Position numbers and translations under genes: made by a program
From: Gluconobacter japonicus
GTDB taxonomy: Bacteria > Pseudomonadota > Alphaproteobacteria > Acetobacterales > Acetobacteraceae
Direction of reading: 5' to 3'
Assembly: GCF_002723975.1 (NCBI RefSeq)
Contig: NZ_BEWO01000008.1
Span: 62,001-126,000, forward strand
DNA length: 64,000 bases
Shown: positions 46,143 to 62,414 of the stretch, piece by piece
How the letters are laid out: each line of letters opens with the position of its first letter
Position numbering within the stretch: position 1 is the stretch's first letter
The notes under the pieces: model-generated
Told to the model about the DNA's origin: nothing
The model's database searches: none
What the model saw: only the letters and a program-made list of their open reading frames with translations

Positions 46143-46144
46143 CG

Positions 46145-47383
46145 TCAGCTTCCAACCTGAGCCGGGCTCATCAACGGAATACGATAATCAGATCCATTGA
46201 TGTTGATATGCAAAAATCCGCCATCAGCAGTTGTCGGCAAGGTCATCCCTTCACCGCTGACAGGAGAGGATATCTGCAATTCACCACCCTCTGCTGGAAA
46301 AAGCCCCAGATTGGCGGATCCATTTGCGCCCTGTTGTACATAGAGGCCAGCCGCCTGACTTCCTGCACCCGCCTGCACCTGAAGAGCATTATTGGGGGCC
46401 GCGATACTCCCAACTGAAAAAAGAGTATGTCCTTCGATATTACTGAAAAGAATCTCGTTATCGACAAAATCCTGGCGTACTCCTTTTGCGCGCTCCGTAA
46501 CCGTAGAACGTACAAAGGCGCCGACATTGCTACCCACAGCACCCGAAACTACTTCTGGGGTATGCCATTCCATGGCATGATTACGCGCCAGAGAAAGTGC
46601 CGAGGCGTAACCGTCGTCTGTTCCATCCGTTCCACTAAGGGACGTGGCACCAAAAACAATTCCCGTCTGCCACGAATTCGGATTCGAAACAAAAACCATT
46701 CCAGCAGCCGCATCCGACGTGCCATCCGTCTGACCTCCGCCTACACCAAGCTGAATACCGTAGACACCGCCGCCCACATTAGGAGCGTAGGGATTGGACT
46801 GGCCAATAGCCAACCCACCAAAATTGACGGCTTCCAGTTCCATGACGAATGTCGGCTGATAATTCACGCCTGCCAGACGCCATGCTTCTCCATAATATGC
46901 ATAGGCAGTCGTGGTTGTCGGGGTAGAGGTGTCATCGGCCACACCCCAAGACGCTACGCCAATCGAACTTGGCTGGAAACCAAGTGTCGCAGGCGCCGTT
47001 TTTGCATCGGATGTGCGGGATGCTGCGACGAAAGCACTATTACCAAACTGCGCAACCGACGCACACTGAGCGTCCTGTAATGCCCATGGCCCAATAGACG
47101 TCTCTCCCATCGTGCGGGAAAGCCAGTCCTTTTTTGATGCCGCGTCACGATCACTCAAGCCAGGATTAGACGCAGCATCTCCAATCAGAACCCGATCCGC
47201 AAACCGACTGATTTTTGCCCCTTTATCCTCGTAAAAGCTTCCTGTCGGCGTCGAAACCGCAGGTGCACCGGCAATCTGCGATGCAGTTGCCGTAACCGTA
47301 TGTTGACCACTGGCATCGGCAAGGACAAGAACCTCGTTTCCAGTCAGCGCCTCAAGTTTTGGATATCTATTAAAAACAGGCAT
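46145..47383 (-). CDS. Phage tail fibre-like protein between J and I
   Basis: About 412 residues from ATG 47383, preceded by GGGGA at 5 bases; upstream in-frame starts lie inside the Shine-Dalgarno area. The N-terminus (YPKLEALTGNEVLVLADASGQ) resembles phage fibre attachment segments. The body is Gly/Ala/Thr-rich with alternating beta pattern and no known enzymatic motif; it ends in DGGFLHININGSDYRIPLM. I take it for a second fibre or side spike. Its position before gpI, instead of after it, is unusual for P2-type tails. Confidence 0.7.
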   Translation of the reverse strand: MPVFNRYPKLEALTGNEVLVLADASGQHTVTATASQIAGAPAVSTPTGSFYEDKGAKISRFADRVLIGDAASNPGLSDRDAASKKDWLSRTMGETSIGPWALQDAQCASVAQFGNSAFVAASRTSDAKTAPATLGFQPSSIGVASWGVADDTSTPTTTTAYAYYGEAWRLAGVNYQPTFVMELEAVNFGGLAIGQSNPYAPNVGGGVYGIQLGVGGGQTDGTSDAAAGMVFVSNPNSWQTGIVFGATSLSGTDGTDDGYASALSLARNHAMEWHTPEVVSGAVGSNVGAFVRSTVTERAKGVRQDFVDNEILFSNIEGHTLFSVGSIAAPNNALQVQAGAGSQAAGLYVQQGANGSANLGLFPAEGGELQISSPVSGEGMTLPTTADGGFLHININGSDYRIPLMSPAQVGS

Positions 47384-47428
47384 AGTCTTCCCCATCCTCC
47401 GCAAATATTCATGCAAGAGGCCTGTTTG

Positions 47429-48568
47429 TCAGTTTTGAATGACGCTGATCTGAATACTACCAACCGCCAAAGCCTGGTCGCCGTTCGCAGGAATATCCAA
47501 CTGACTTCCGTTGAGGCGCACATCAAGAACGGACGTAACGGTGACGCCCGCGCCCACATAAGCCAGATAGGAGAGTCTACTGAAAGCATACCCACTGCCT
47601 ACAGTCGTTCCTGCAATATCCTGCGTAATGGCATTCTGAATGGCAGTTGTCGCCTGCTGTATTCCGACAGATAAAGGCACCACAACAGTCATGGAAACAT
47701 TCAGAATCAGCAAAGATGGCGCCCGCACGCCAAACCCGACCCCGAGCGCCTTAACCTCATTCACTGCGTCGTAAATCTGCTCCAGCAACTGATCTGCCGG
47801 AGCCCCACTGCCATCATTCAAAACGACTGTAAAATATCCAGAGCGGGCAGTATCATCCGCTACCAATCCGTCCCGCAACGAATAGGAAAGACCCGTCTGA
47901 ACACCCAAAATGGCATTCCCCACGGCGGCTCGACTGGCAGATGCTTTTGCCGCCAACCACAATGGAAAGCGGGTCCGCAACTCTGCATCGGTTTCCTGAT
48001 CTGAACCATTCAGGAACGCCACAGGATTAGTCACTGTATCGATACCAGAAATAGCTGTACCCATGAGACAGATCGCACCCACCGGGACATTCCCAATTCC
48101 TCCAGCACTCTGACACTGAACCGGAACGGAAATATTCGACATACCAGCTGTCCGTACGTAGCCTCCGGCCGTTTCCGACCACCCCGAGAGCATACTCTCC
48201 TTCACAACAACAAAAGAGAGGCCGGAAACAGTTCGTACAATCGTGCCGGGCACCACAACAGCCGATTGCTGTGCAGGTGAGAACGACGACATAATGACCA
48301 TTCCGCTTGAGGCCGTACCCGGAAGACGTGACATCCCAAAATCCTGGACGAAACTGTCACAATCCTCAGCAGTACATGTTGCCAAACGGGTTCGAAGCAA
48401 AATCTGTAACACCAGATATTGCAACCATAATCCGATACCCCCTACGCTTTCCATCAGCGCGCGAACCGGAGACCCGACAGAAACATCCAGTAATTGCGTA
48501 CAGGAAGATTGCGCCGTTACCACGGCGGTAGACACCGTCGTGGTGAACGAGCGAAGAGAAAGAGACAT
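47429..48568 (-). CDS. Phage baseplate J family protein
   Basis: About 379 residues; ATG 48568 has GGAGG 5 bases upstream. It matches gpJ/T4 gp6-like wedge proteins: SCTQLLDVSVGSPVRALMESVG at the N-terminus in parts, RLPGTASSGMVIMSSF, TVVVPGTIVRTVSGLSFVV, FLNGSDQETDAELRTRF, and SYSLRDGLVADDTARSGYFTVVLNDG near the middle. It assembles with W and I into baseplate wedges. Confidence 0.9.
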   Translation of the reverse strand: MSLSLRSFTTTVSTAVVTAQSSCTQLLDVSVGSPVRALMESVGGIGLWLQYLVLQILLRTRLATCTAEDCDSFVQDFGMSRLPGTASSGMVIMSSFSPAQQSAVVVPGTIVRTVSGLSFVVVKESMLSGWSETAGGYVRTAGMSNISVPVQCQSAGGIGNVPVGAICLMGTAISGIDTVTNPVAFLNGSDQETDAELRTRFPLWLAAKASASRAAVGNAILGVQTGLSYSLRDGLVADDTARSGYFTVVLNDGSGAPADQLLEQIYDAVNEVKALGVGFGVRAPSLLILNVSMTVVVPLSVGIQQATTAIQNAITQDIAGTTVGSGYAFSRLSYLAYVGAGVTVTSVLDVRLNGSQLDIPANGDQALAVGSIQISVIQN

Positions 48569-48610
48569 TACATCCTCCAGATACACCCGACTGAAACAGG
48601 CACATCCTTT

Positions 48611-48970
48611 TTACGAAGAAAAATCCAAGGTCTGCTGCTGCCCAGTCTCAGCATCCACATAAGAAATCTTGCACAGACACATCCCATCGGAGCCGGAGCT
48701 AATCTCGACTTCCACAGGAGAGTAAGGATCTACGCCTGCATCTTTCTGGACCTGAACCCTGATTTCAGCCTGCATTGTTGATGGCACAATGACGTTACCA
48801 ATCATGCCCTGCAAACCAACGCCATAATCTAGCTGCCAAAAATAATCACCGACGTTGGTCAACAATCGTCTCAAAAGGCGTTGCCGAACCTCTTCCGAAC
48901 CGGAAACAACAGCCAATCCGCCATCTGCAAGCAGCAGATCACCACCGTAAAAATGACCAACGGAACTCAT
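48611..48970 (-). CDS. Phage baseplate protein W (T4 gp25-like)
   Basis: A 119-residue sheath initiator/wedge protein. It shows the gp25-like pattern: GDLLLADGGLAVVSGSEEVRQRLLRRLLTNVGDYFW in sections, DYGVGLQGMIG, then RVQVQKDAGVDPYSPVEVEI. It starts 4 bases inside the V gene end (ATGA overlap) and precedes J, as in P2. Confidence 0.9.
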   Translation of the reverse strand: MSSVGHFYGGDLLLADGGLAVVSGSEEVRQRLLRRLLTNVGDYFWQLDYGVGLQGMIGNVIVPSTMQAEIRVQVQKDAGVDPYSPVEVEISSGSDGMCLCKISYVDAETGQQQTLDFSS

Positions 48971-49593
48971 CCTATCGGCCCTCCCGTGGACTGTGTTCCT
49001 ACCAGATGAATATGATTATCCAGTGAATGAGCCTCAGTCTGAATATCGCCAGAAAAAACCTTCAAACCACTAGCGGACAAGACGGCCCTAACATTTCCAA
49101 CCGTCAAAACAATCTGATCATGAGAAATAATAAACCTTGAATTACCAGCCCCCAGTGTCACGCCCTGTCGGTCAATCTGACACCACCCCGCTTCCGCACT
49201 TTTCTGCACGGGAACCGATAACGTATTCTCAACCGGCGGCTCACCACACCCAGCACGGATCAAAAGCTCACCCGGTTGAATGACACTTCCATCAAGAGGC
49301 GATACAGGCGCCGTTACAACAGTATCGAAGACCGCACCAACCGCGACAAGATGCTCCGCATCTCCTTCAATCGGAAGCAAAACAACATGCGTTCCGGGTT
49401 CGGAGGGGCACGCAATCCTGAGATCTCCAGCCTGGACACCACCAATATCTGCAATCCAGCCCGTTTCAATATTATCAGGCTGCACTCTAACCTTGATGGC
49501 ATGGTTCACAGGATCAACAGCAGAAACCACCCCAAAAACAGCGTGAGCGCTCCTGTTGAACAAAGCCGCAGTAGCTATTTGCCCTTGCGTCAT
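48967..49593 (-). CDS. Phage baseplate spike protein, gpV-like
   Basis: A 208-residue central spike protein. The N-terminal OB-fold shows VFGVVSAVDPVNHAIKVRVQPDN and GDLRIACPSEPGTHVVLLPI; the C-terminal part is a narrow beta-helix type run ending in DNHIHLVGTQSTGGPIG, where a His-x-His may hold an iron ion at the tip, as in P2 gpV and phi92 gp138. It trimerises on the hub to puncture the outer membrane. Overlaps both neighbours by 4 bases. Confidence 0.88.
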   Translation of the reverse strand: MTQGQIATAALFNRSAHAVFGVVSAVDPVNHAIKVRVQPDNIETGWIADIGGVQAGDLRIACPSEPGTHVVLLPIEGDAEHLVAVGAVFDTVVTAPVSPLDGSVIQPGELLIRAGCGEPPVENTLSVPVQKSAEAGWCQIDRQGVTLGAGNSRFIISHDQIVLTVGNVRAVLSASGLKVFSGDIQTEAHSLDNHIHLVGTQSTGGPIG

Positions 49594-50654
49594 GTTTGCC
49601 CTCCCCTTCTGCGTAACACGACATGCTGAACAAAACCTTCCTCCAGAGAAAATCGCGAAATAACCTGATCCACTCCAAGAATTTCCTCTGTCTGCCCCAC
49701 TACAACTCTCATAAACTGGCGTGGGCCAAGCCCAATCAAACCGGGCATCGACACTCGGGCACAGACGGCATGAGCGGCTATTCGTTCATATTTCCCACGT
49801 GCCAATCGTCGAAGATCCTCCATTCGACGCCCTGGAACCCTGAAAGTATGAAGTGTTTTCTCTGTTACAGGTGCATTCTCAGAAAATGTTTTTCCATCGT
49901 AATATAAATGCGTACTATTGCGCTGCCGGGAATCCCAAGACGCAAGATGCACTATAATTCCGGATGATAGCTGCAAATCTCGAGCGAAATCCGTATCAAA
50001 AACCAGTCCACGCACATCGATGACATCTTGATTTTGGTATGAGCTCTGTATCGGTTCACAGACCAGGTTTGGCCCGTCGGCATACAAATCACACAATGCT
50101 TCCCGGGCAACAGAAAATGCCAGATCAGCTGCAGTCTGAAAGCGATGCTGAGACAGAAAAGACCCACGCTTGTGCTCAATCTGCCAGAACTGACCCAACA
50201 TATGGTCAGGCATATCAGCCGGAAACGACACTCGAGCGCCCAAACCGGAAGCCTTGGCCAACACAGAAAGGAGATCGGCCCCCGTATGATTCAGCCAGGA
50301 ACCCTGCATACGCAAATCTATAAGTCGAGCAAGGGCGTCTCTACATTCCATTTCCACAACGGAATTTTGTGAAAAAACACGAACATGATCAACGAGCCCA
50401 TAAAAAATCATGGTCCACGCCGCGTTATTTTCTTTCAGATCCCGGATTTCCACAGATACCCAGGAGCTATTGAGAATACTCTGTTCAAACCAAAGTGCAG
50501 GACCGTTCTCTGCAACGTTGTTACGAACAAAAGTCAGAACTGCTGTGTCACACCCTTCATATCTATGGGAATCAATTTCAAATTTCTTCAAAGAAATTAT
50601 CGAATTTTCTACACCTTCCCACAGAATACGAACTTGCAGTTGGCGATCTGTCAT
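49590..50654 (-). CDS. Phage tail hub protein, gpD-like (late control D family)
   Basis: A 354-residue hub (T4 gp27-like). Signs: LTFVRNNVAENGPALWFEQ near residue 45, FYGLVDHVRVFSQNSVVEMECRDALARLID in parts, SVLAKASGLGARVSFP, and C-terminal TFRVPGRRMEDLRRLARGKYERIA. The hub lies between the tube end and the spike. The X, D and V genes overlap each other by 4 bases, which fits stoichiometric coupled translation. Confidence 0.85.
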   Translation of the reverse strand: MTDRQLQVRILWEGVENSIISLKKFEIDSHRYEGCDTAVLTFVRNNVAENGPALWFEQSILNSSWVSVEIRDLKENNAAWTMIFYGLVDHVRVFSQNSVVEMECRDALARLIDLRMQGSWLNHTGADLLSVLAKASGLGARVSFPADMPDHMLGQFWQIEHKRGSFLSQHRFQTAADLAFSVAREALCDLYADGPNLVCEPIQSSYQNQDVIDVRGLVFDTDFARDLQLSSGIIVHLASWDSRQRNSTHLYYDGKTFSENAPVTEKTLHTFRVPGRRMEDLRRLARGKYERIAAHAVCARVSMPGLIGLGPRQFMRVVVGQTEEILGVDQVISRFSLEEGFVQHVVLRRRGGQT

Positions 50655-50860
50655 TGTCCTTTATCATCAGGAAGACCTGACGAACTTTCCGATATGATTC
50701 CTGGAATTTTCAGTGTCAGAACAGTCTCAATCCATGACAAATCAGGATCACTGAGCCCATTGAACTCCGCGATCCTCCACCATTGACAGGCATCATCCAA
50801 TTCTCGTGCGGCAAGATGAAAGAGAGACCTATCCGCCGAGGTTACGATAATATCTTTCAT
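50651..50860 (-). CDS. Phage tail protein X-like (LysM-type baseplate protein)
   Basis: A 69-residue protein with a LysM-like pattern: DRSLFHLAARELDDACQWWRIAEFNGLSDPDLSW and a terminal VLTLKIPG, given in sections. P2 gpX and T4 gp53 contain such a domain, which clamps the baseplate centre. The start lies 6 bases after the U-like gene, and its end overlaps D. Confidence 0.82.
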   Translation of the reverse strand: MKDIIVTSADRSLFHLAARELDDACQWWRIAEFNGLSDPDLSWIETVLTLKIPGIISESSSGLPDDKGQ

Positions 50861-50866
50861 GAATCC

Positions 50867-51784
50867 TCACGAATGAACTGGCGGAATTTGCGAGGTAAGC
50901 CCTTGTGTCTGCCCCACATAGGCATTTGACCGGTTAACAAGCCCTCCCACATCTGCTCCTGTGCTCTGTATCGCGGCATTTCCGACGACAGCAGAGAGAG
51001 ACGCGGCGTTCCCAATCTGGATATTTTCAATATTTTGGCCAGACACTTCGAGTGCTGACATCAACCCTTGCCCAGAAACGCTGAGTTGCTGAGACAGACT
51101 TTCAAGGGCTGTAGATGTTCCCGCCAAATTCGTGACACTTTGGCTTAAAGTGCTCGTTGTCGTAAGTGCCTCACCAACCTTTGCAAGAGGCCCACCCACA
51201 CCGAGCAAAGCTCCCAAAGGCATGATTTGCCCCACAATCGAGCCAACCTGCCCACTTTCAACAAACAAACCGTCAGAAACATCAGAAATAACGCTGCTGA
51301 TTTGCGTTAAGCCACTGGCGACATCAGTGCCTAGAACATTCGAAAGCGTCTTTCCCATATCGGGAGACACAACACTTTCCGCAGGTCTTTCAAGAGTCAG
51401 TTCATACGAACAAAGTGCACCCTTCGCTTCGTATGAATAGACAAAGCGTACAATCCAGACCTGCAAAGCCATGCCAGCCACAGAAAATACAACAGGCACA
51501 CCACGGAGACGCATTTTTTCAATGGTCTGAGCTCGCGTCTGGGCGTTAGGCCCAAGAAATTTACCCGCCAGTTCCAGACGCCCCGGATCATTGCCAAGCG
51601 TATCCACAACACGCCCGCCACCAGGAAGCCGATGAACCACCATCATCTGCCGTCCCCCGACCTGCAGACGATCCGGAACTTCAATCCCGGTTAGCACAAG
51701 ATCCCCAAGCATTACCGGAGCCGTTGCTCCCAAGCGCCCAACAGATCCAATAGCATTTTCAATCGCAGAGAGCGTCAAGCCCAT
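50867..51784 (-). CDS. Phage tail protein with gpU/Mu gp43-like N-terminal part
   Basis: About 305 residues; ATG 51784 has GGAG 7 bases upstream. The first 130 residues (DLVLTGIEVPDRLQVGGRQ, RVVDTLGNDPGRLELAGKF, RLRGVPVVFSVAGMALQVWIVRF) resemble the N-terminal domain of P2 gpU / Mu gp43-type proteins near the tube-baseplate junction. The remaining 170 residues are helical, rich in Ser, Gly, Leu and Val, without known domain, and could extend into the tube. The long tail could help the short preceding gene act as tape measure; that is speculation. Confidence 0.65.
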   Translation of the reverse strand: MGLTLSAIENAIGSVGRLGATAPVMLGDLVLTGIEVPDRLQVGGRQMMVVHRLPGGGRVVDTLGNDPGRLELAGKFLGPNAQTRAQTIEKMRLRGVPVVFSVAGMALQVWIVRFVYSYEAKGALCSYELTLERPAESVVSPDMGKTLSNVLGTDVASGLTQISSVISDVSDGLFVESGQVGSIVGQIMPLGALLGVGGPLAKVGEALTTTSTLSQSVTNLAGTSTALESLSQQLSVSGQGLMSALEVSGQNIENIQIGNAASLSAVVGNAAIQSTGADVGGLVNRSNAYVGQTQGLTSQIPPVHS

Positions 51785-51801
51785 CAATGCTCTCCTATAT
51801 T

Positions 51802-52707
51802 TTAATTTATTCCAATGCTTCGACCGGGATATTGCGGAAACCTGAGTTCATCGACACCTCCGTGCCCCTGACGCGCCGAAATCCTCGAATTTTTTTCAGG
51901 ATCATGACGTACAGATAACTCCGTACGGAATGACGAAAACTGTGTCTTGAAGTCACCATGAGAGATGTCTTCTTTTCCAACTTGATGCAGACTGTTTTTT
52001 TCCTGCATCGCATTTTCCAGACTTCTATTTCTTATCCCTGGCGGAGGAGCCATACTCTTTTCCAAAGCCAGCCCCCTCCTGCTTCCAATAGGAGCATGCC
52101 CATGCACTCCGAAATTCAGGCGGGTATTTTCCTGCGATACAGGAAAAATTTTCCTGTTCGGATAAGGAATAATATTCCGGGTAACCTGCCCCTTCGGAGA
52201 GGGCATGAGTCTTTTTGCTTCTTTTTTTGGAGGCTGCATCACTGCAGAAACAAGTTCAAAAGAGCGCTGGGAAACTAACGCTCTTTTTCGTTCAGAAAAT
52301 ACAGAAACCGACTTCGGAAAGCGCTTTTCACCCTGATCTAGGTGCGAAAAACTAAATTTCTCAGCCAGCACCCCGGGCAAAATTCTCGCTACCTGCATGC
52401 TGAGTTGGCTATTTCCCAAGCTGTTACGGTTTACCTGTTCCAGCTTGACAGACAACAACGCACCAATTTTTTTATCTTTCCTGGACAAAACTCCATTCCG
52501 TTCATCTGCCTCCATCACACTCGCACCAGGCACTGTGTCCGACAAATATCTCGCACGATCTGTCTTATCAAATAGAACCGGGTTTTTGTATCTATTCCGC
52601 AATGGAACAAACGAGGCACTCGATGTTATGGACCGACCACTGAAGACATACCGTGCCACTGGCAAATCTAACCGAAACGCCCCTCCTTGTACTGTAGATG
52701 TAAGCAT
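51802..52707 (-). CDS. Protein in the tape-measure position, unusually short
   Basis: A 301-residue protein whose ATG follows the frameshift-product stop by 2 bases. In P2/Mu-type operons this slot holds the tape measure, normally 600-1000 or more residues, helical and with hydrophobic segments. This protein is different: strongly basic, rich in Ser, Arg, Lys and Pro, with no long helix, membrane segment or coiled coil visible. If it is the tape measure, about 0.15 nm per residue predicts a tail near 45 nm. Otherwise it may be a tube-filling or unrelated protein. The DNA here is among the most AT-rich in the window. Confidence 0.55.
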   Translation of the reverse strand: MLTSTVQGGAFRLDLPVARYVFSGRSITSSASFVPLRNRYKNPVLFDKTDRARYLSDTVPGASVMEADERNGVLSRKDKKIGALLSVKLEQVNRNSLGNSQLSMQVARILPGVLAEKFSFSHLDQGEKRFPKSVSVFSERKRALVSQRSFELVSAVMQPPKKEAKRLMPSPKGQVTRNIIPYPNRKIFPVSQENTRLNFGVHGHAPIGSRRGLALEKSMAPPPGIRNRSLENAMQEKNSLHQVGKEDISHGDFKTQFSSFRTELSVRHDPEKNSRISARQGHGGVDELRFPQYPGRSIGIN

Positions 52708-52709
52708 CT

Positions 52710-53194
52710 CTATTCCCGATATTGCCTTTGACTCCAGTCAAATATATGGCCGTCGCGTTCTGCTGTAATAATACACGCTGCCATGCGCCGAGCCCGTGAC
52801 CACGATGTCAGGATATTCCACGGCACTCCATGATCCAGAAGATAAAGCATCTCCTGGAACGCAGAGTGCCTGCTTAGTTTTTTGCTGTAGCAACCATCTC
52901 TTCTTCATCCTGCCCTTGCTGGAAAAAAGGATGAAGCGCCGCCACCCCAGTTTTCCCTAACCGGCGTGCCAGTTCACGAATTTCTTCTTTTGTTCCAGGC
53001 ATCTGTACAGGAACTCCGTCAATTGCTGTGACAGAGCAGATCATTTCCGCATAACCAAGCCAGGTCGCCGCAGCAGGACCATTGACCGCCGACCCTGCTG
53101 CTTCGATCAGATCCAACATATCAGCCGGATCAATCTCTTTAAGCGCAAGACAGCGACCATCCGAAAGAGATACGGTTTCCGGAAGAATACTCAC
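52710..53194 (-). CDS. Tail assembly chaperone, long form made by -1 ribosomal frameshifting
   Basis: The chaperone frame reaches GCA AAA AAC TAA. The heptamer A-AAA-AAC (52883 to 52877) is a classical -1 slippery site directly before the stop. After a -1 slip the ribosome reads 55 more codons to TAG at 52712-52710, giving about 161 residues. The extension contains FQEMLYLLDHGVPWNILTSW and SRARRMAACIITAERDGHIF, a helical pattern like the T/E' extensions of lambda G-GT and P2 E-E'. The next gene starts 2 bases after the long-form stop, which supports real translation of this frame. A GCAG-N5-CTGC hairpin follows the slippery site by 3 bases. Confidence 0.85.
52874..53194 (-). CDS. Tail assembly chaperone, short form (lambda G / P2 E equivalent)
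   Basis: A 106-residue protein directly after the tube gene, starting at a GTG that overlaps the tube stop (GTGA). It has the typical layout: short beta start with LSDGRCLALKEIDPADMLDLIEAAG, a central part mentioning VTAIDGVPVQMPGTKEEIRELARRL (in sections), and a polar tail EEEMVATAKN leading into the slippery site. Tail chaperones coat the tape measure and recruit tube subunits. The ratio of short to long form is usually essential for tail length. Confidence 0.82.
   Translation of the reverse strand: MSILPETVSLSDGRCLALKEIDPADMLDLIEAAGSAVNGPAAATWLGYAEMICSVTAIDGVPVQMPGTKEEIRELARRLGKTGVAALHPFFQQGQDEEEMVATAKN
52877..52883 (-). other. Slippery heptamer A AAA AAC
   Basis: On the minus strand the zero-frame codons AAA and AAC are preceded by the A of GCA, giving X XXY YYZ = A AAA AAC. 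The UAA stop follows at once, which would favour pausing and slipping. A frameshift by one base back opens the 55-codon extension that ends at 52710. Confidence 0.85.
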
Positions 53195-53616
53195 GAAATT
53201 TTTGTCCTTGTAGAAGCAAAGAACTGAACTGTCTGATGAACCATCTGATCAGACTGCCACGCGTCATTTTTCAGCTTGATAGAAATATTCGTATATTCCC
53301 AGGTACTGGTAGTCCCGTCAGGCTCCGTCACATACTGATAAATCGTACCACTCCCGACAGTACCAGCATTCCAGTAAGCGGCTTCAATTGCTGCGACCAA
53401 ATTATCAAGCGCAGCGCTAGCCCGAGCAATCTGAAAAGAACCTCTCCACCCATTGGGAACATTGAATTCCACGGGCATTCCGTTCAGCGGACTGGCCCGC
53501 AGAGCCTGTGTCTCCTGTGACGCTCCAAAAGAGGTCACATCCCGAAGATCAACGCGCTGTCCATTCCATAGAACCGTAATCCGACAGTCACGACCAATAC
53601 TGTATGGATTTGCCAT
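53191..53616 (-). CDS. Phage tail tube protein
   Basis: A 141-residue protein placed after the sheath, as in P2 (FII) and Mu. ATG 53616 has GGGAG 9 bases upstream and follows the sheath stop by 2 bases. Beta-rich, with CRITVLWNGQRVDLRDVTSFGASQ, WRGSFQIARASAALDNLVAAIE in sections, and STWEYTNISIKLKNDAW, typical of tube proteins that stack as hexamers. Confidence 0.86.
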   Translation of the reverse strand: MANPYSIGRDCRITVLWNGQRVDLRDVTSFGASQETQALRASPLNGMPVEFNVPNGWRGSFQIARASAALDNLVAAIEAAYWNAGTVGSGTIYQYVTEPDGTTSTWEYTNISIKLKNDAWQSDQMVHQTVQFFASTRTKIS

Positions 53617-53618
53617 GC

Positions 53619-55103
53619 TCAAACGCTCCCCCCACCAGATGTTACCGTCACGGAGGTTCCACCCTGCAAATTCACTACAAATTTTTCGTTGATTCCCTGA
53701 TAACGCACAGCAACATCGGCCTGAACGTAACCAAGAGCCGTTCGCGTCTGAGGATTATTCGTACTGTCGCAAACAACACTGTAAGGTAACTCGCCGTTCT
53801 GAACAGCCAGAATGCCCTGCGATAGCAGAGATGACAGAAAACCAAGAAGCGTTGCACGAATGTCCGAAAAGAGTGTGTCGTTCACAACCTGACCAACATA
53901 AGCCCCCATTCCTCCTGCCAAAGAAGACGCAAGGTAATTGGTCAGTCGCGTGTAGTTATCACCATTGACGATTGCCTTGCTCGAAGCATTATGCCCACAA
54001 CGCACCGCCCAATACGAACCACCCGGCGCAGGATTGCAAATAACATCTATTCCCGCCGTAAACAGCGTAGAAAGTTCTGCCGTAGAGTATGTTGCACTGC
54101 TTCCTGTCAGACCTGATTTCTGACTCCCGACAATCCCGGCCAACGCCTTGTTAAGGCTCGACTGCTCAGGTGACAGCGCGGCCAGAATACCTGCGGCAAA
54201 AGCCTGCGGACTGACAAGCATCATTCCATTAACGTCATCATTCCACCACAGCCAATCCCCAAACATCAGTTTGACCGCAGGAGAATCCAGTCCACTGGCA
54301 GCTTTGATCGACACAGCATTCGTAACGCTGTCATAAGAAGGGCCAGACGCAATCATGTACGTCCCTTCTCCAAGCCCAAATGCAGCTTGGGAAGAATACG
54401 ACACACTGTCCGTAATGCCATGTAAAAGCGCGATCGCACAGCCTTGCCCTCTCAGAGCATACATCCCCGTACGAACGATCTCGTCTTTTCCCACAAAAGA
54501 CGCCACAGAAGGCGCAGCACCATCCAGCCCTCCCATCAACGTCACGCTACCAGAGACCATGTCCGGAACAACTTCTGGCAAACGTACGGTAATCAGCGCC
54601 GACAGATCCTGTGCGACAGCCGCAGCAATTGTAGTCCAGTCATGACCCGCATAGCTGGCAAATCCTAGTACAGGATGTGAAACCGCCAATGCATAACCGG
54701 AACCGGTTGCACTCACCGTCACCACAATACTGTTGCCCGCTGTCCCCGTATGAACAGCTTGAAGTGCCACATCCCCAAAACTGCCGGACGCCGCTACATC
54801 CGTACCATCCGTAACACGGACAACCACAAAAGAAGATGCCCCCTGCAGGGCGGCAATATTCACAGCAAGTCCAGCATCCGTCACTGCATCCTGCTTTGCA
54901 CCGAATGCCACCAGGTAATCCCCCATGCCACCCACAGGCACAGGTGAACCAACAGGCCCCCAACCGGCAGTTCCCACAATGCCAAGCTTGGACGAAGGCG
55001 CACCTGTCAGGCCAAGCGTCTGTGGCTGTGCAATCTGCACATAAAGATTAGGCACCGTCAGTGCCGTCGTATTTAGCGTACCCGCCTGATAAACCAGAGA
55101 CAT
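53619..55103 (-). CDS. Phage contractile tail sheath protein
   Basis: A 494-residue sheath subunit. The N-terminus (TALTVPNLYVQIAQPQ, SSKLGIVGTAGWGPVGSPV) and the central GSVTLMGGLDG match the FI sheath family. The C-terminal domain (VVNDTLFSDIRATLLGFLSSLLSQGIL in sections, DVAVRYQGINEKFVVNLQGG) provides the strands that interlink subunits. It shows that the virion has a contractile (myovirus-type) tail. Preceded by a terminator hairpin and an AAGGAG about 11 bases before the ATG. Confidence 0.93.
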   Translation of the reverse strand: MSLVYQAGTLNTTALTVPNLYVQIAQPQTLGLTGAPSSKLGIVGTAGWGPVGSPVPVGGMGDYLVAFGAKQDAVTDAGLAVNIAALQGASSFVVVRVTDGTDVAASGSFGDVALQAVHTGTAGNSIVVTVSATGSGYALAVSHPVLGFASYAGHDWTTIAAAVAQDLSALITVRLPEVVPDMVSGSVTLMGGLDGAAPSVASFVGKDEIVRTGMYALRGQGCAIALLHGITDSVSYSSQAAFGLGEGTYMIASGPSYDSVTNAVSIKAASGLDSPAVKLMFGDWLWWNDDVNGMMLVSPQAFAAGILAALSPEQSSLNKALAGIVGSQKSGLTGSSATYSTAELSTLFTAGIDVICNPAPGGSYWAVRCGHNASSKAIVNGDNYTRLTNYLASSLAGGMGAYVGQVVNDTLFSDIRATLLGFLSSLLSQGILAVQNGELPYSVVCDSTNNPQTRTALGYVQADVAVRYQGINEKFVVNLQGGTSVTVTSGGGSV

Positions 55104-55125
55104 CCGCTGGTTTTCTCCTTTTAAT

Positions 55126-55163
55126 AAAAAAGCTCCATTCCAATTTCGGAATGAAGCTTTTTC
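55126..55163 (-). terminator. Hairpin terminator between neck and sheath genes
   Basis: AAAAGCTCCATTCC (55128-55141) pairs with GGAATGAAGCTTTT (from 55148) with one mismatch and a 6-base loop. On the minus strand a T-run follows. It sits in an 80-base gap between the neck gene end (55184) and the sheath start (55103), and may reduce tail transcription relative to head genes or mark a tail promoter downstream. Confidence 0.85.
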
Positions 55164-55183
55164 TCATTAAATTCTTTTATTTT

Positions 55184-56158
55184 TCAGTCTGTAGAACACA
55201 CAACCGTACCAAACTGATTCAACGTCATGCCCGGATATTCAGAACAGGAGGATGCCGACAACCTCGCAACATTCATCGCACTCAGCGCCTGTGTTACAAC
55301 GCTTTCTTCCAATGCAGGCACAAAGGCACCAAAGCCACTTCCTCCCTCCGGAATATCAGATGTTCCTACTCCAAACATCATGTCAGCAGCCCATTGGATC
55401 TGGAGCACGTCAAAAATCAGTTCGTAGAGATAATCCCGGCGATAAATTGCCTGATTTTGCATAGCGTCCACATCTTCGACGCTCACAAATTTCAGTTGTG
55501 CCTGTCGACCATCCAGCGTCGATATCCAACTTTTCTCTGCAAGTGCCATATCCAGAGACAATCCAATCTCATCTCGAACACTCGCATCTGCTGTCCAGAC
55601 GGAAACACGATACAGCTGGCTCTGCCGACGGCTAACCCGGACAGATTCCCCATACCCAACAACATTTCCCAAAAGAGAAACATCTGGAACACTCACAACT
55701 GCCTCATCCGCAACACCGTGAGGCAACTGCTTTGCCAAAGCCGCCGCTACACTGTCTGGAGTATCCTGGGCCGTCACCGCATAAGCAGCCGTTGTCTGAC
55801 GCACTCCTGCGTACCAGAGACCAACAACCCCCGAAGGAACAGTATCCTTCGGGAAAACAATCTGAACTGTCTGCCCCGCCTGCAGAACAGAAACAGTCGG
55901 CAGAATGCGCGCCTGAACATGCCATGGTCGCCCCAAGGGTTCTGGTACAGCCGCCCTCTTCTGCGCAGCCATCGTCACAGTCACATAATCCGTATGACTC
56001 CGAATATTCTGAGCCGCAAATATATCACTGGGCAAAAGCCAGCCACGCCGAACAACAGTCTGCCGCCCGGTAAGGGACGGTTTCTCTAACCCATCCGGAT
56101 ACAATATCCCCGCACATACATAAGCGAGAACCTGACTCATCTGAGAGGCATCCGCCAT
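55184..56158 (-). CDS. Probable phage neck / tail terminator protein
   Basis: A 324-residue protein between the connector genes and the sheath. The first 200 residues are beta-rich (VQARILPTVSVLQAGQTVQIVF). The C-terminal third (LYRVSVWTADASVRDEIGL, DGRQAQLKFVSVEDVDAMQ, IYRRDYLYELIFDVLQIQW) has the pattern of tail terminator proteins that cap the tube and join it to the head. Function is inferred from that pattern and position. The ATG has only a weak Shine-Dalgarno (GGGA). Confidence 0.6.
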   Translation of the reverse strand: MADASQMSQVLAYVCAGILYPDGLEKPSLTGRQTVVRRGWLLPSDIFAAQNIRSHTDYVTVTMAAQKRAAVPEPLGRPWHVQARILPTVSVLQAGQTVQIVFPKDTVPSGVVGLWYAGVRQTTAAYAVTAQDTPDSVAAALAKQLPHGVADEAVVSVPDVSLLGNVVGYGESVRVSRRQSQLYRVSVWTADASVRDEIGLSLDMALAEKSWISTLDGRQAQLKFVSVEDVDAMQNQAIYRRDYLYELIFDVLQIQWAADMMFGVGTSDIPEGGSGFGAFVPALEESVVTQALSAMNVARLSASSCSEYPGMTLNQFGTVVCSTD

Positions 56159-56170
56159 TTCAATTTCCCA

Positions 56171-56773
56171 TCAGATCTGCTGCAACGACATGGTGCAACG
56201 CAAACCCCAGTCAGACATTTCGGCGGTATTTATCGTATAAGTGACATCAAGATCTGTTGTAACCGTCATGTAAGGCTGAAGCAGGACACCAGGAAGACGC
56301 GGCAAATACATAATAAACTGACCTGGCTTGACCGAGCCTGGCACACCGCTTCCAGACGCCTCTCCTTTTGATTTCAGGACAATTGCAGCAGGGCAGTCTT
56401 CAACGACATTTCCCGTTGTTCCCGTAACCCCACTAACCTGAACAATACGGCTACATGCAACACACAAAGGTGGCCTCAATTCCTCCACCGCCGCTACGAA
56501 AAACGTTTTTCCAGCGCATGTCAGAATATCCCCGACCAACGTATCATCCCGCCGATCCGTCAGAACATATTCCATGACTTTACCCCAACCGGGCACACGC
56601 GAAAACGAAAACGAGTCCTGTGCGTCAAAAGCCAGCATGGGATGAGCATAAACATCCTGCATCGGCGCCAATGGATAAGCAGGCCGATACTGCATACCAG
56701 CCTGTCCCAAAATACCCGCAGCCTTCGCATGGCCCTTACAGACCCGGGATGCAATCAATTCAAGATGCATCAT
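56171..56773 (-). CDS. Phage head-tail connection protein, unassigned
   Basis: A 200-residue protein; AAGGAAGC lies just before the ATG. Features seen: AGMQYRPAYPLAPMQDVY, a beta-rich middle (VGDILTCAGKTFFVAAVEELRPPLCVACSR in sections) with several cysteines, and a C-terminal MTVTTDLDVTYTINTAEMSDWGLRC. Position between capsid and tail terminator suggests a head-closure or stopper protein. I do not recognise a specific family. Confidence 0.6.
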   Translation of the reverse strand: MMHLELIASRVCKGHAKAAGILGQAGMQYRPAYPLAPMQDVYAHPMLAFDAQDSFSFSRVPGWGKVMEYVLTDRRDDTLVGDILTCAGKTFFVAAVEELRPPLCVACSRIVQVSGVTGTTGNVVEDCPAAIVLKSKGEASGSGVPGSVKPGQFIMYLPRLPGVLLQPYMTVTTDLDVTYTINTAEMSDWGLRCTMSLQQI

Positions 56774-56780
56774 GCTTCCT

Positions 56781-57182
56781 TCAAATCACTACAGCACGAC
56801 CATCCTGCAACTCCAGACCGCCCGTCACACCTAGAAACGCACAGAGACGACGACGCCAAAGCGTCAGAAGTGCCACCCGGTCCCGCAATTCATGCCCATT
56901 GTGATACCAGCTCGCAGCCTGCGCCGTATCCAGATTGTCCGAAGCTCCAAGAAGGGCCGTTTCAAGTGGGTAAAGCTGTGACAGATATAGTCGAACCTGC
57001 TGAAGTTCCGCACCCGACAGATTTCCCATACGCCATTCCAGCGCCCCCTCAACCTGAAAAAAGCGCCAGGATTCTTGCCCCGTTTCCCGAGATCCAACAG
57101 CCGGATACCCGCAAAACCTCCGGACATCCATTTTCTCTCCTTCCGTTAAAGGAGCAGAAGACAGACTTGCCGTTCCAGACAT
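56781..57182 (-). CDS. Phage head-tail adaptor-like protein
   Basis: About 133 residues from ATG 57182 (AGGGGA about 5 bases upstream); ATG 57131 is another option. After a polar N-terminus, MDVRRFCGYPAVG begins a mainly helical domain (AELQQVRLYLSQLYPLETALLGASDNLD, RDRVALLTLWRRRLCAFLGV in sections), like gp6/gp15-type adaptors that bind the portal. The placement directly after the capsid gene supports this. Confidence 0.6.
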   Translation of the reverse strand: MSGTASLSSAPLTEGEKMDVRRFCGYPAVGSRETGQESWRFFQVEGALEWRMGNLSGAELQQVRLYLSQLYPLETALLGASDNLDTAQAASWYHNGHELRDRVALLTLWRRRLCAFLGVTGGLELQDGRAVVI

Positions 57183-57234
57183 ACTTTTCCCCTGACCTGA
57201 AAGGCCTCGTGTCACCACGAGGCCCCAGTCGTAT

Positions 57235-58614
57235 TCAGAACGTCATACCCAGCGCGTCCGTGCCCAGACTCTCAATCACAACACCACGCTTCAGATAACT
57301 GTTGGTCGCCGTCGGAATAACATTCGTATCCGCCGTCACGTCTGTCGGCAGCGCAAAACCGCCAATCCAGTACCAGGACTGCGCAATGATCTGCCGCAGA
57401 CGATCCAGCGGCTCACGGGTCACCATCGCCACCCCGTCAACCATCTCAATCAGCGCACGATCAGCGTCCGGAATATCGGAATGACCCGTCAGCGCACAGT
57501 CGCCCTCAATCAGTGCCCCCTGCCCCAAAAGTAGTGCACGATGAATCGGTCCAGCACCAAGAGACAGCTGCTGAGGCGCTTCAGTCGTCGGAATAAAACG
57601 AACACCCAGCAGTTCAATAACCTGCCCAGAACGATACTCTTCCGAACCATATGCGCCACGATAAAGATGCTTGAAATCATCATCCCGAAACAACGACAGA
57701 AGCTGAATATCATCCAGATAACAGTGATATGCCCCATTAATCATCGGCACGTTATTCCGACGTAGTGTCGCAACACCCGCAAGAACCTGCTGAATACCAA
57801 GCGTATCTGCCAGACCGCTCGAACTCGCCGTCTGAAGCGCCGCCGTCGTCAGGCGACCGTTAGGACGAATAACCTTCGGCGCAGTCGCAGCAACCACAGG
57901 CTGACCCAATGCACCATCGGAAACAGACACGCTACCAGAGAACGTCATCTGCCCAGAGATACCGCCCGGCGCCGTAGAAATATTGGTCGCATCCGCCACA
58001 ACCCGGACAAGCGTGTAAACATCCGAACCAACCGTGACGGTCATCCCACTGCTGGATCCAATCAGCGTCACCTGACCATTGACAATAACCGATTGGAACC
58101 CGCGAATATCATCAACCTGAACGGTGTCCCCTTCCGCATCCAGCGCAACATTGACACGCGTATTGCCACCCAGATAACCACCAACACCATTCTGAGCGCC
58201 ACCAAAAAGCGTATTACGCGCCAGGCGATCCAGAGACTGCATGGCCTGAACACCATTCGTGTTGGCATTGGCGAGGAACTGGGACGCAATGCCGACGCCA
58301 CTCGTAACCATATTCAGATCAATCGTGTCACCATACTGATTGATCGAAAGCGTATATTGCTCAACAGACCAGCCCGCTGGGCTCATCCCGTTATCAAAAT
58401 TGGTATTCCCGGTCGGGTTGAGCGGTGTCGTGACAGGCGCCTTCAGGCTTTTGCGCGTCTTGGTCAGCGTCTCACCAATCGCGTTCGGGAAAACCTCCCG
58501 ATCCGCAACCTGACGGAAACCGAGACGAGACTTCAGACCGTTTTCAAACTCACGGGCCAGAAAACCCTGCTGAATGGCGGCCTGAAGCTGAACTGGAAAA
58601 TTATCAATGCTCAT
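57235..58614 (-). CDS. Phage major capsid protein
   Basis: About 459 residues from ATG 58614. The start (VQLQAAIQQGFLAREFENGL, REVFPNAIGETLTKTRKSLK) and end (YHCYLDDIQLLSLFRDDDFKHLYRGAYG in sections, ELLGVRFIPTTEAP, GVAMVTREPLDRLRQIIAQSWYWIGGFAL in sections) fit an HK97-fold capsid, possibly the N4 gp56-like branch. A Gly/Ser/Val-rich insert (about residues 195-265) looks like an added Ig- or beta-type surface domain. No protease gene or cleavable delta domain precedes it; a scaffold-like protein does. Confidence 0.78.
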   Translation of the reverse strand: MSIDNFPVQLQAAIQQGFLAREFENGLKSRLGFRQVADREVFPNAIGETLTKTRKSLKAPVTTPLNPTGNTNFDNGMSPAGWSVEQYTLSINQYGDTIDLNMVTSGVGIASQFLANANTNGVQAMQSLDRLARNTLFGGAQNGVGGYLGGNTRVNVALDAEGDTVQVDDIRGFQSVIVNGQVTLIGSSSGMTVTVGSDVYTLVRVVADATNISTAPGGISGQMTFSGSVSVSDGALGQPVVAATAPKVIRPNGRLTTAALQTASSSGLADTLGIQQVLAGVATLRRNNVPMINGAYHCYLDDIQLLSLFRDDDFKHLYRGAYGSEEYRSGQVIELLGVRFIPTTEAPQQLSLGAGPIHRALLLGQGALIEGDCALTGHSDIPDADRALIEMVDGVAMVTREPLDRLRQIIAQSWYWIGGFALPTDVTADTNVIPTATNSYLKRGVVIESLGTDALGMTF

Positions 58615-58646
58615 AAATTTCGTTCCGTAAATATTTATAGAAATTT

Positions 58647-58666
58647 TCCGGTAGAATTTTACCGGA
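58647..58666 (-). other. Hairpin in the capsid gene leader
   Basis: TCCGGTA (58647-58653) and TACCGGA (58660-58666) form a perfect 7-bp stem with 6-base loop. On the minus strand it is followed by AAAATTTCTATAAATATTT, AT-rich and containing TATAAAT, in the 80-base gap before the capsid ATG. It may be a weak terminator, an mRNA-stabilising stem, or mark a capsid promoter. Confidence 0.5.
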
Positions 58667-58694
58667 CGCACTCAATCACTTCACACCCGAGCCA

Positions 58695-59189
58695 TCATGC
58701 TCCGGCCAAGAACTGCCATTTTCGGGCTTCGTAATCGGAATCCGTCGCAGATCGGGCATTAAATGCCTCAACCTCTCCCGGCCTGGGCGCAGGATGCCCA
58801 ACCGTCGTCCCGCTGGAATACCCAGGACGCAACACATCACCGAACAGATATCCACGGTCGTTCCGGGATCGTTCCAGAACCTCCGTCACACCCATAACCG
58901 TACCGTCTTCGTTTCGGGTCACACCCTCCATATCGATCAGACGCACAACATCGTCAGGATTATGTGCCCCCATCCGAATGGCTTCAGACCGCAATGCAGC
59001 GACCATGACATCATGATTACTTTCCCGCTTCACACGGGAAATAACTTCCTCATGCGTGCGCTGAAGCTCCTCCTGTCTGGCTTCAGCTTCCGCCATGGCC
59101 TGACGAACGGATTTCACTTCGTCCATCGCTTCTGCAAGCGCCTGACGAAGTTCTGCCACATCTTCAATAGTATCTTCAGATCCGGACAT
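58695..59189 (-). CDS. Phage scaffold-like coiled-coil protein
   Basis: About 164 residues; ATG 59189 has GGAG 6 bases upstream. Residues about 8-60 form a continuous coiled coil (EDVAELRQALAEAMDEVKSVRQ, AEAEARQEELQRTHEEVISR in sections). The C-terminus (TDSDYEARKWQFLAGA) could bind the capsid shell. Location between portal and capsid is where scaffolding proteins lie. No protease motif is visible, so the scaffold may leave intact. Confidence 0.7.
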   Translation of the reverse strand: MSGSEDTIEDVAELRQALAEAMDEVKSVRQAMAEAEARQEELQRTHEEVISRVKRESNHDVMVAALRSEAIRMGAHNPDDVVRLIDMEGVTRNEDGTVMGVTEVLERSRNDRGYLFGDVLRPGYSSGTTVGHPAPRPGEVEAFNARSATDSDYEARKWQFLAGA

Positions 59190-59206
59190 TTTTTCTCCGC
59201 TCACTC

Positions 59207-60625
59207 TTATGCGTCGTCCGACGCAACCCAGTTTTCCAGAAGCCGCCATTCCGTACCGGGATCAGAATTTCCCGACGCCGTCGCATACATTCGAACGGCC
59301 GTCTCCCGGCTCAGAATTCCATTTGAAACCGCCGTCACAAGCCCTTGCGCCAACGACAAAAGCTCAGGGTCTGTCGCCGGGAACCAGGCAGGCCACCGCA
59401 ACGTCATGCGGCAATACGGCAAGTCCTTCACCAGAACACCGCCAAGACGCAGACCATTTTCCAGCACACACGAAAAACGACAGGCCATTCGATAAATGGC
59501 CTGCAATCCACTCTCGCCATAAGAATGACGCAGCCGATCCACCAGCCAGATCAATGGCTGACACATCATCTCCATGGCCTTGCCAGATTGCACGCCAGAA
59601 ATCCGGTCACCATGCGCCCGGTTTCCATGAAGCTGCTCAAGCGCAATCTGCCGAAGCTCCCGATAGTGCTCCAGCACCGCCCCCGCTGCATTACCATTGA
59701 TCTCAAGCAGCTTGGCATCCCCTTCGGGTGGCAATGTCAGAGCCGAAGATGCTCCCCCCTGATGCGCCACACCATCCGAAAATCCACCCGTTTTCAGAAC
59801 AAGCGTCGGATCAGAGCCATATTTCAGCCCGCGCCCAGCTTGAGACAGCAGATAATCCGCCTCAATGACTGTATCGATCGCACGCTCAAACGTGCATTCG
59901 CCTTCCGGGTCTCGCCCCTGACGACCACCAAGATTCCGGATCCAGACAATCGGAACAAACCCCAGTCCATGCCGAACAGACCGGCTCTCGTCCCGCACGC
60001 CTCCATCCATCCCAACAAGCCAGGGAACGGACACTGCACAATCCATCGGCGTCCAGACCCGCTGCCACCAGAACTGAGCACCCAGAAGGTCTTCGCCAAT
60101 CGCATATCCCTGCACAGCCAGATCACGCCCCCGCACCAGGAAACGCTCTTCAACGCGCAGTAATTCGCCGCTGACATCGTCCCAGAACGGCGTCAGATAC
60201 GCCGTATCCAGAACCGAAAGTTTCGGCACACCAGCCGAAACCTCAAAAAGAACCGCTACCGAACCAATAGACCCAACAGTGGCAGCTTCCATCATCAAAG
60301 ATGCCAGCCGCGTCTGAGAGGCAAAGACTCCCATCGCATCTGAAACCCGCGTGTCATCGGCAATCAGACTAGGCCAGTGCGTATCCCCAAACAGCAAAGA
60401 AACAGATTCATCGACAACCGTTCGGCAAAGGTTACTTCTGACGGACGGACGTCTGTTAGAAAGCGGAATGTACTCCCCCGCTCCCGATCGCTCCATCGAG
60501 AACGGATGAGGCAATGCATCATACTGCGTACCGTCCAGAACACGTCTCAACGCCAACAGGCGCGCAGTCCGCGCAGACGCACCCGCCGGCACGGCATAAC
60601 GCCGCTGCAGGGACAACCAGTCCAT
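59207..60625 (-). CDS. Phage portal protein
   Basis: About 472 residues from ATG 60625, with GGAGA 4-5 bases upstream. The N-terminal part (SNRRPSVRSNLCRTVVDESVSLLFGDTHWP in sections), a wing region with FWWQRVWTPMDCAV, and a C-terminal helical stretch (SGVQSGKAMEMMCQPLIWLVDRLRHSYG in sections) are consistent with a dodecameric portal through which terminase pumps DNA. It lies between terminase and scaffold as expected. Confidence 0.82.
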   Translation of the reverse strand: MDWLSLQRRYAVPAGASARTARLLALRRVLDGTQYDALPHPFSMERSGAGEYIPLSNRRPSVRSNLCRTVVDESVSLLFGDTHWPSLIADDTRVSDAMGVFASQTRLASLMMEAATVGSIGSVAVLFEVSAGVPKLSVLDTAYLTPFWDDVSGELLRVEERFLVRGRDLAVQGYAIGEDLLGAQFWWQRVWTPMDCAVSVPWLVGMDGGVRDESRSVRHGLGFVPIVWIRNLGGRQGRDPEGECTFERAIDTVIEADYLLSQAGRGLKYGSDPTLVLKTGGFSDGVAHQGGASSALTLPPEGDAKLLEINGNAAGAVLEHYRELRQIALEQLHGNRAHGDRISGVQSGKAMEMMCQPLIWLVDRLRHSYGESGLQAIYRMACRFSCVLENGLRLGGVLVKDLPYCRMTLRWPAWFPATDPELLSLAQGLVTAVSNGILSRETAVRMYATASGNSDPGTEWRLLENWVASDDA

Positions 60626-60667
60626 GAGTTCTCCAGTGCTAAAGCCCACCTGAAGCCCGAAGGCTTT

Positions 60668-61984: not shown

Positions 61985-62414
61985 AACTGATATTGATGGA
62001 AACAGGCGCCGTAGAAATCTCTTCCTGCCCAGCCCTGAAGCGCGCAGGGCGATGCGCCCTCAAGAGAAACGCCATCAACCCATCACTATATTTTTTCCTG
62101 ACAAGCGGATGACCAGTCTCCGGATCGCAAACCACTTTTCCTGCATAGGTAATCGGCTCGTCATAACCTTCCAGAGCACGACGTCTGGCTTCAGCTTCCA
62201 AAATATCTGCTGCATCTTCCAGTGCGTCCTCCCACTGAGAGGCAAACGCCACATCTGTTTCCTTCCAATGGTAAAGCGTGCTTCTCTGAACACCAGCAAA
62301 TCGACCGGAGTCAGAAACATTTCCACTTTTCGCAAGATGTTCCAGAAACCGTTCTTTACGCCGACGTGAACGCCCACTTCGCCCTCGCAGCCCGTCAGCC
62401 TGTGTTTCGCTCAT
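61965..62414 (-). CDS. Phage terminase small subunit-like protein
   Basis: A 149-residue DNA-recognition subunit. The N-terminus is Arg-rich (GRSGRSRRRKERFLEHLAKSG), then a helix-turn-helix: VSDSGRFAGVQRSTLYHWKETD. The C-terminal part shows YDEPITYAGKVV and RKKYSDGLMAFLLRAHRPARFR, the usual ending of small terminases of this group (portal/large-subunit binding). It directs packaging to the pac or cos site of phage DNA. Confidence 0.85.
   Translation of the reverse strand: MSETQADGLRGRSGRSRRRKERFLEHLAKSGNVSDSGRFAGVQRSTLYHWKETDVAFASQWEDALEDAADILEAEARRRALEGYDEPITYAGKVVCDPETGHPLVRKKYSDGLMAFLLRAHRPARFRAGQEEISTAPVSINISYDDSVL

Follow-up and report, generated by a model that had tools for sequence, protein, structure and literature searches.

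A small gene in the tail region of a 64,000-nt stretch of Gluconobacter japonicus DNA (hereafter the window) raises the question of whether one reading frame gives rise to two proteins of different length. The sequence-only reading of this locus had pointed to a 106-codon frame that ends GCA AAA AAC TAA, with the stop touching an A_AAA_AAC heptamer, and to a second frame, one base back, that stays open for 55 codons and closes 2 bases before the next gene, and had interpreted the two as a tail assembly chaperone made in a long form by -1 frameshifting. The layout was confirmed on the minus strand, where the TAG that ends the 55 codons after the slip lies at 52712-52710 and the ATG of the next gene at 52707 (Table 1). 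Upstream of the slip the -1 frame is open for just 7 codons, and ATG, GTG and TTG are absent from all seven. A heptamer of the form X_XXY_YYZ by itself means little, since 41 of 7,308 in-phase positions in 25 ORFs of the window qualify, and conservation is therefore the test. The same gene contains a second in-phase heptamer, T_TTT_TTC at 52928-52922, which is a dead end, as the -1 frame meets a TGA (52907-52905) 5 codons on.

Table 1. Positions in the window of the frameshift gene, its signal elements and the surrounding tail genes.
Feature	Position	Strand	Evidence
Short form, putative tail assembly chaperone, 106 aa, GTG start	52874..53194	-	0-frame ORF
Slippery heptamer A_AAA_AAC	52877..52883	-	read from sequence; conserved in relatives
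0-frame stop TAA, touching heptamer	52874..52876	-	read from sequence; adjacency conserved in relatives
-1 frame extension, slip to TAG, predicted mainly helical	52710..52883	-	-1 frame, dN/dS, predicted model
5' arm of conserved 9-bp stem, GGCACTCTG, 6-nt spacer after heptamer	52862..52870	-	pairing counts, fold prediction
3' arm of conserved 9-bp stem, TGGAGTGCC	52822..52830	-	pairing counts, fold prediction
Predicted upper stem within 31-nt loop	52834..52858	-	window fold
Tail sheath gene	53619..55103	-	PHROG 23 tail sheath, E 2.5e-42
Upstream gene in tail-tube position, 143 aa, PHROG 12993 (no assigned function)	53191..53622	-	role inferred from place after sheath
Gene in tape-measure position, 301 aa, no family match	51802..52707	-	role inferred from position only
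Phage-derived structural cassette, terminases to tail fibres, contains frameshift gene	44200..63828	-	PHROGs, locus comparison

Conservation of the site and selection on the extension

Relatives were gathered solely by protein similarity, with the heptamer ignored in selection. The chaperone query found matches in 157 of 397 sampled genomes of the host's family and in 24 of 26 genomes of the host genus, together with 27 viral contigs, two Komagataeibacter phages and one Rhodovastum atsumiense plasmid (NZ_OW485608.1, 52060-52335), the last encoding a distant relative of 35.8% identity. Queries with the extension led to 80 loci kept of 105 named genome loci, 18 more from another scan and 80 kept of at least 528 viral loci, while one viral scan with an extension query returned zero relatives; contig scans used the closer alignment set A3, the broad alignments A1 and A2 (46 of 135 usable loci, 138 in total) being unusable for scans. 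Outside the host's family such loci are rare: a class sample of 385 genomes contained 4 with a match and a phylum sample of 398 contained 3, figures that include the host genome itself and other members of its family, and the named outliers with an extension match are Rhizobium lusitanum, Limnoglobus roseus and Rugamonas aquatica. This gave 325 loci, 322 of them with both core and extension (L141 and L142 are without extension, L227 without core), and 245 that are distinct over the 180 nt around the site.

As conditions that would speak against frameshifting, the sequence-only reading had named relatives that lack the heptamer or that carry stops in the -1 frame. Heptamer and open -1 frame are both kept in 240 of the 245 distinct loci, with G_GGA_AAC in 129 and A_AAA_AAC in 111, counts that ignore kinship and do not represent independent events, since many loci are close relatives. 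A 0-frame stop stands directly 3' of the heptamer in 215 of the 245 loci and 18 nt later in 24. In a further check of 11 more loci, heptamer and adjacent stop occur in all, including 6 of 6 new ones. A divergent second copy (L143/L147, contig 9 of G056) has A_AAA_AAC without an adjacent stop, and its 0-frame continues for some codons.

Five distinct loci depart from the common pattern. L116, on a contig shared with L193, is the only locus without a heptamer, and its 5' stem arm is disturbed too, as though all parts of the signal had disappeared at once. L235 and L239, which belong to Rhizobium lusitanum and a MAG, carry G_GGG_GAA ahead of the stop in place of X_XXA_AAC, and in L239 the arms of the stem described below are still complementary with their letters changed. 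In L017 and L275 the extension lies in another frame, apparently through an indel.

The position of the stop leaves a trace in codon choice. Of 238 loci with leucine as the first extension residue, 214 use CTR for it, compared to 739 of 1,313 CTN-coded leucines elsewhere in the extension (1,461 leucines overall), and the second residue is encoded by AGY in 202 of 203 serines compared to 222 of 563 elsewhere, again without regard to kinship. The favoured codons CTR and AGY are those that spell a 0-frame stop, and adjacency of the stop to the heptamer thus looks to be under selection, although the first extension bases double as the spacer before the stem, so that their conservation could have another reason.

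Judged by substitution ratios, the extension DNA evolves under purifying selection when read in the -1 frame. Over 13,064 pairs the median dN/dS is 0.48 for the extension in this frame and 0.42 for the core, and for 4,202 pairs of equal length it is 0.33 in the -1 frame, versus 1.38 and 1.80 when this DNA is translated in its two alternative frames. The extension can be aligned over 46 diverse members with five invariant columns and a mean column identity of 42%, and conserved residues (L1 and H4) lie within its first five codons. The sequence-only reading had called it a credible helical segment, and its predicted model has three helices (pLDDT 88.6).

A conserved stem downstream of the heptamer

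A feature absent from the sequence-only reading is a conserved stem 3' of the heptamer. Synonymous conservation is high at about codons 0-6 and 15-17 of the extension in three separate groups, and some later extension codons are also raised in one of the three, the group with the smallest distances (other A_AAA_AAC). The conserved blocks are complementary: GGCACYCCG begins at the seventh base 3' of the heptamer, and YGGRGUGCC follows after another 31 nt. Among the 239 of 240 loci with heptamer and -1 frame that have enough flank, the resulting 9-bp stem is the sole run of at least 5 pairs above 80% between positions -6 and +98. All nine pairs are present in 199 of these 239 loci compared to 1.4 +/- 0.7% in 500 synonymous shuffles (maximum 3.8%), and the mean number of pairs is 8.76 compared to 6.29 in synonymous shuffles with group codon usage; the observed mean also lies above all 500 permutations of the arms (maximum 8.65, or 8.69 within groups). 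Fold prediction recovers the lower stem (at least 7 pairs) in 231 and the inner pairs (at least 5) in 234 of 239 loci. Fold z-scores were sampled in 80 of 239 loci; for the window, a stem region of 77 nt has a predicted energy of -31.8 kcal/mol (z -3.56), reached by 0 of 200 dinucleotide shuffles and by 2 of 500 synonymous shuffles. In the 11 further loci at least 8 of 9 pairs are found in ten (5 of 6 new ones), and L465 has 4 of 9 in the same register.

RNAalifold on 66 loci recovers just 5 of the 9 pairs and gives a covariation term of -0.34, a result explained by the scant variation in the arms, and for this reason the case for the stem leans on synonymous constraint more than on covariation. 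In alignment A5, which holds 66 diverse loci of the 239 (22 per group), 93.6% of cells pair versus 39-51% when the partners are slid by 1-3 columns. Cells with a double change number 9 compared to 1.7 in shuffles, yet 3 to 11 with slid partners, and the number of pairs with a double change was reached by 24 of 500 shuffles. In 7 of 239 loci, the window among them, Gly16 is encoded by GGA instead of GGG; all 7 have Ser4, and a T-A pair in place of C-G keeps the pairing. L131 and L143 are altered in the RHP residues that the 5' arm usually encodes, and by eye a complementary stretch lies 1 nt nearer.

The family therefore combines a conserved in-phase X_XXY_YYZ heptamer with a 3' structure whose spacer, 6 nt in the window, falls inside the range of 5-9 nt given as usual in excerpts of two reviews of recoding (PMC7618472, PMC5009743). 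The scan from -6 to +98 revealed no second helix of at least 5 pairs at 80% that could form a pseudoknot, and scans of the groups at 70% gave further helices of just 4-5 bp. A comparison with Rfam gave a single match, under its cut-off (E 0.42). An upstream Shine-Dalgarno stimulator was also considered: anti-SD pairing ahead of the site is somewhat stronger than in controls, with medians for the three groups of -4.65, -5.00 and -5.25 kcal/mol versus -3.14, -2.89 and -3.43 kcal/mol, an effect too weak to support such an element.

Frameshifting, its rivals and the identity of the pair

The site, the frame, the selection on the extension, the stem and the conservation of each can be read off the compared sequences, and from these features we infer that slippage happens; the yields given below for its products are a proposal. 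The comparative signature very probably reflects programmed -1 ribosomal frameshifting with an RNA stimulator, and for a frameshift as such, whatever aids it, the signature leaves little room for doubt. We give a probability of about 0.88 to the explanation as a whole, in which a slip aided by the stem yields a short and a long tail chaperone with roles like those of lambda gpG and gpGT. A fraction of the ribosomes on the chaperone gene would move back one base at A_AAA_AAC, where the AAA and AAC codons would re-pair as AAA and AAA, while the GC-rich stem-loop, its base 6 nt downstream, would sit at the mRNA entrance as the slippery codons are decoded. Ribosomes that do not slip would terminate at the adjacent stop, which may add a pause, and the products would be much of the 106-aa short form and little of a 161-aa long form. 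The short form would probably coat the tape-measure-like protein and the extension would probably recruit tail-tube subunits, as in lambda gpG/gpGT.

The slip site had been called a textbook heptamer; A_AAA_AAC is indeed present, but its type is X_XXA_AAC, unlike the X_XXA_AAG type of E. coli. In E. coli, A_AAA_AAC is described as much less shift-prone than A_AAA_AAG, and in Thermus a second lysine tRNA has been suggested to make AAG sites less shifty (both in excerpts of PMC5009743). The host genome encodes tRNA-Lys UUU and CUU, tRNA-Asn GUU and tgt, and the two lysine tRNAs, in the one genome examined, could explain why AAC stands in place of AAG.

Nearly the same product as by ribosomal frameshifting would arise if RNA polymerase slipped on the A run and added one A to A6, and the excerpt on Thermus dnaX reports polymerase slippage in place of ribosomal frameshifting (PMC5009743). 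This origin of the extension is nonetheless very improbable, because the 129 GGGAAAC loci have no run longer than three and all 111 A-type loci have exactly six A, in a single phase; the downstream stem, moreover, is of the kind that acts on ribosomes. Scarcely more credible is an independent small gene with a start of its own, which is how the deposited annotation of the Komagataeibacter phages phiKX1 and phiKX2, with a separate CDS there, treats the extension. In 170 of 240 loci the -1 frame does contain some ATG, GTG or TTG in the interval from its upstream stop to extension codon 13, but 70 of 240 have no such start and just 62 of 240 have an ATG, and this lack of conserved start codons makes a separate gene unlikely. 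Just 42 of 240 loci have a start that lies ahead of the extension or in its first five codons, though these codons encode the conserved L1 and H4, and a separate gene would leave the heptamer, the position of the stop and the stem unexplained. A 55-codon open frame alone is not rare, and a chance frame without function or readthrough of the stop might thus be proposed; readthrough, however, would continue in frame 0, where a stop comes after 21 more codons, and chance is at odds with selection in the -1 frame and its conservation in 240 of 245 loci, so that either can be practically dismissed.

A rival of another kind accepts the frameshift and assigns the pair to a function other than tail assembly chaperone, for example that of a baseplate hub assembly factor. 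Neither the short form nor the extension matched a Pfam or NCBIfam chaperone family over the cut-off, and the pair is accordingly not filed under any of these families; the expectation that the extension would resemble known chaperone extensions was not borne out, as no named family of such extensions in Pfam, PHROGs or NCBIfam matched, which weakens the chaperone label and does not weaken the frameshift. The short form matches PHROG 20383 (E 1e-16), for which PHROGs assigns no function, and a sequence search of solved structures gave best E values of 0.42 and 0.16, with no credible match. Its predicted model (pLDDT 78.8) resembles the HK97 chaperone 2ob9 weakly (rank 4, E 2.3, TM 0.42). The viral models include one good match, to an unnamed phage protein (E 9.7e-7), and the weak fold matches comprise several named tail assembly chaperones, which argue for the label, as well as baseplate hub proteins, which do not, and Bacillus phage G gp181 and gp182. 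The protein in the tape-measure slot, short and fast-evolving, also speaks for another function, whereas the long proteins in this slot of six phiKX1-type loci and the gene order around the frameshift pair speak against it. This order runs sheath, tube slot, frameshift pair, tape slot, U-like gene and LysM, where the U-like gene and the slots are named by order; it is the place of tail assembly chaperones, with only the sheath recognised and the tube and tape slots assigned by order. The tube-slot gene overlaps the chaperone start by 4 nt, and the pair has, as expected for such chaperones, a conserved C-terminal extension in another frame. From gene position, weak fold resemblance and precedent we infer a chaperone role, which appears probable, and a different function of the pair appears unlikely.

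Among 71 of 107 loci, the tape-slot protein is about 240-456 aa long in many, compared to 301 aa in the window and 734-776 aa in the six phiKX1-type loci (L049, L051, L052, L055, L056 and L058). Provided that such a short protein does act as a tape measure, the tails would be expected to be very short.

Frameshifting in tail chaperone genes was reportedly surveyed by Xu and others in 2004, and the proposed frameshift is of a known kind in view of the lambda precedent and of a Burkholderia phage in which the same site plus stop was predicted. In lambda, as excerpts of PMC5009743 describe it, one start gives rise to a short and an extended chaperone through a -1 slip late in the first frame, as proposed here, and the products act between the tape measure and the tail tube protein. 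The lambda site is G_GGA_AAG (excerpt of PMC7618472), whereas members of the window family use X_XXA_AAC, in most cases with a stop next to it, together with a conserved stem, and the window pair matches no chaperone family in sequence. The G-type members share their layout with gp18/gp19 of Burkholderia phage KL1, where slippage at GGGAAAC right before the gp18 TGA was predicted along with a stem-loop (PMC3483164); KL1, however, belongs to the siphoviruses, and its prediction drew on a single genome, while the present family was compared over 240 loci and the window has a tail sheath. Tail genes (g-t) of the haloarchaeal viruses HCTV-1 and HCTV-2 use G_GGA_AAC and A_AAA_AAC (excerpt of PMC5009743), in hosts that are archaeal, unlike that of the window. 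The phages phiKX1 and phiKX2 carry a homologous chaperone (49.6% identity) and extension, with A_AAA_AAC plus TGA in phiKX1. In both (L058 8001-8542 and L454 2001-2542) chaperone and extension are annotated as two hypothetical proteins without a frameshift. They differ in being phage records of about 53 kb, and the tape region of phiKX1 encodes a 742-aa protein.

The host cassette and what the signal may mean

The sequence-only reading had spoken of related prophages. The frameshift gene does lie in a phage-derived cassette of roughly 20 kb with head genes and a contractile tail, but "prophage" is probably too simple a term, because the cassette appears to be inherited together with the host genome. 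One flank carries what we take, from their translations, to be dnaB, folC and accD, and the other a cytochrome c gene and a GMC dehydrogenase gene (Pfam). The locus was compared in ten relatives from five genera, counting the host's own. Both terminase genes are kept in 10 of 10, and in 6 of 10 the last fibre gene is succeeded by the cytochrome and GMC genes; the opposite flank has dnaB-folC in 3 of 10, all of them members of the host genus, and in 7 of 10, from five genera, it has an AcrB-type pump gene. Beyond the cassette lies a divergent XRE-type regulator (L372 929-1321, HTH_3) that is 80-98% identical in 10 of 10 relatives, its best NCBIfam matches being phage repressors, below cut-off. 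No tyrosine integrase was found on the 140-kb contig, and in the 24 cassette ORFs PHROGs recognised no lysis, integration or replication genes, a search that covered neither small ORFs nor serine recombinases. Two members of the host genus without a chaperone match keep the cassette, in damaged form, between dnaB and the cytochrome gene (L470, L472, L474, L475). In G1135 the extension was found and the chaperone core was not, and G1141 has lost the stretch from sheath to LysM and has split genes.

Distances of terL and recA correlate with a Spearman coefficient of 0.48 over 25 genomes, compared to 0.468 for the best of 2,000 permutations, and of 0.88 over the 14 genomes of the host genus. Of the 30 genomes, 26 gave sequences, as in G149, G259 and G343 the terL is not the one near the chaperone and that of G286 is partial, and G192 was dropped for a partial recA. 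The terL and recA trees have just 9 of 22 splits in common, so that the deeper branches do not simply agree, and within the host genus the median dN/dS is 0.09 for terL and 0.024 for recA. The picture is that of an element not moving on its own, with a conserved host locus and vertical inheritance, marks of a gene transfer agent, evident within the host genus and weaker between genera.

The cassette may be a domesticated, possibly gene-transfer-agent-like, particle, and together with the XRE-type regulator it is a candidate for a gene-transfer-agent-like or PBSX-like particle. Membership in the PBSX family was not supported by the terminase, which scores 59.6 bits against TIGR01547, under the cut-off of 105.05. 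An RcGTA-like type I agent was rejected, as a sheath gene is present and the RcGTA-like lineage has a non-contractile tail. A published survey reports RcGTA-like clusters in 0 of 34 Acetobacterales OTUs (PMC6821227), and PMC9662315 gives the tails of the Bartonella and Brachyspira agents as non-contractile or absent. Among the matches listed in literature searches, none described a contractile gene transfer agent or any agent in the host's bacterial group. That the acetic acid bacteria and their kin possess a domesticated, vertically inherited contractile-tail particle, either a sheathed gene transfer agent or a DNA-packaging bacteriocin-like one, whose recoding signal has been kept under selection since before the genera parted, is a tentative reading to which we give somewhat less than even odds.

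Frameshifting in tail chaperone genes is already well known, and the window holds a new, well-supported instance, of added interest for its conserved stem and stop and its probable upkeep inside a domesticated cassette. It extends the rule of a two-length tail chaperone to a large family for which no annotation of a frameshift was found, and the comparison across loci argues strongly for a bacterial X_XXA_AAC site accompanied by a conserved stem and by a stop retained next to it. What the adjacent stop and the lysine and asparagine tRNAs contribute can now be tested in a host that differs from E. coli. Should the cassette encode a domesticated particle, this would be a contractile-tail counterpart of the known gene transfer agents, in an order for which the survey reports no RcGTA-like clusters (PMC6821227), and the recoding signal would be a sign that the cassette is kept in working order.
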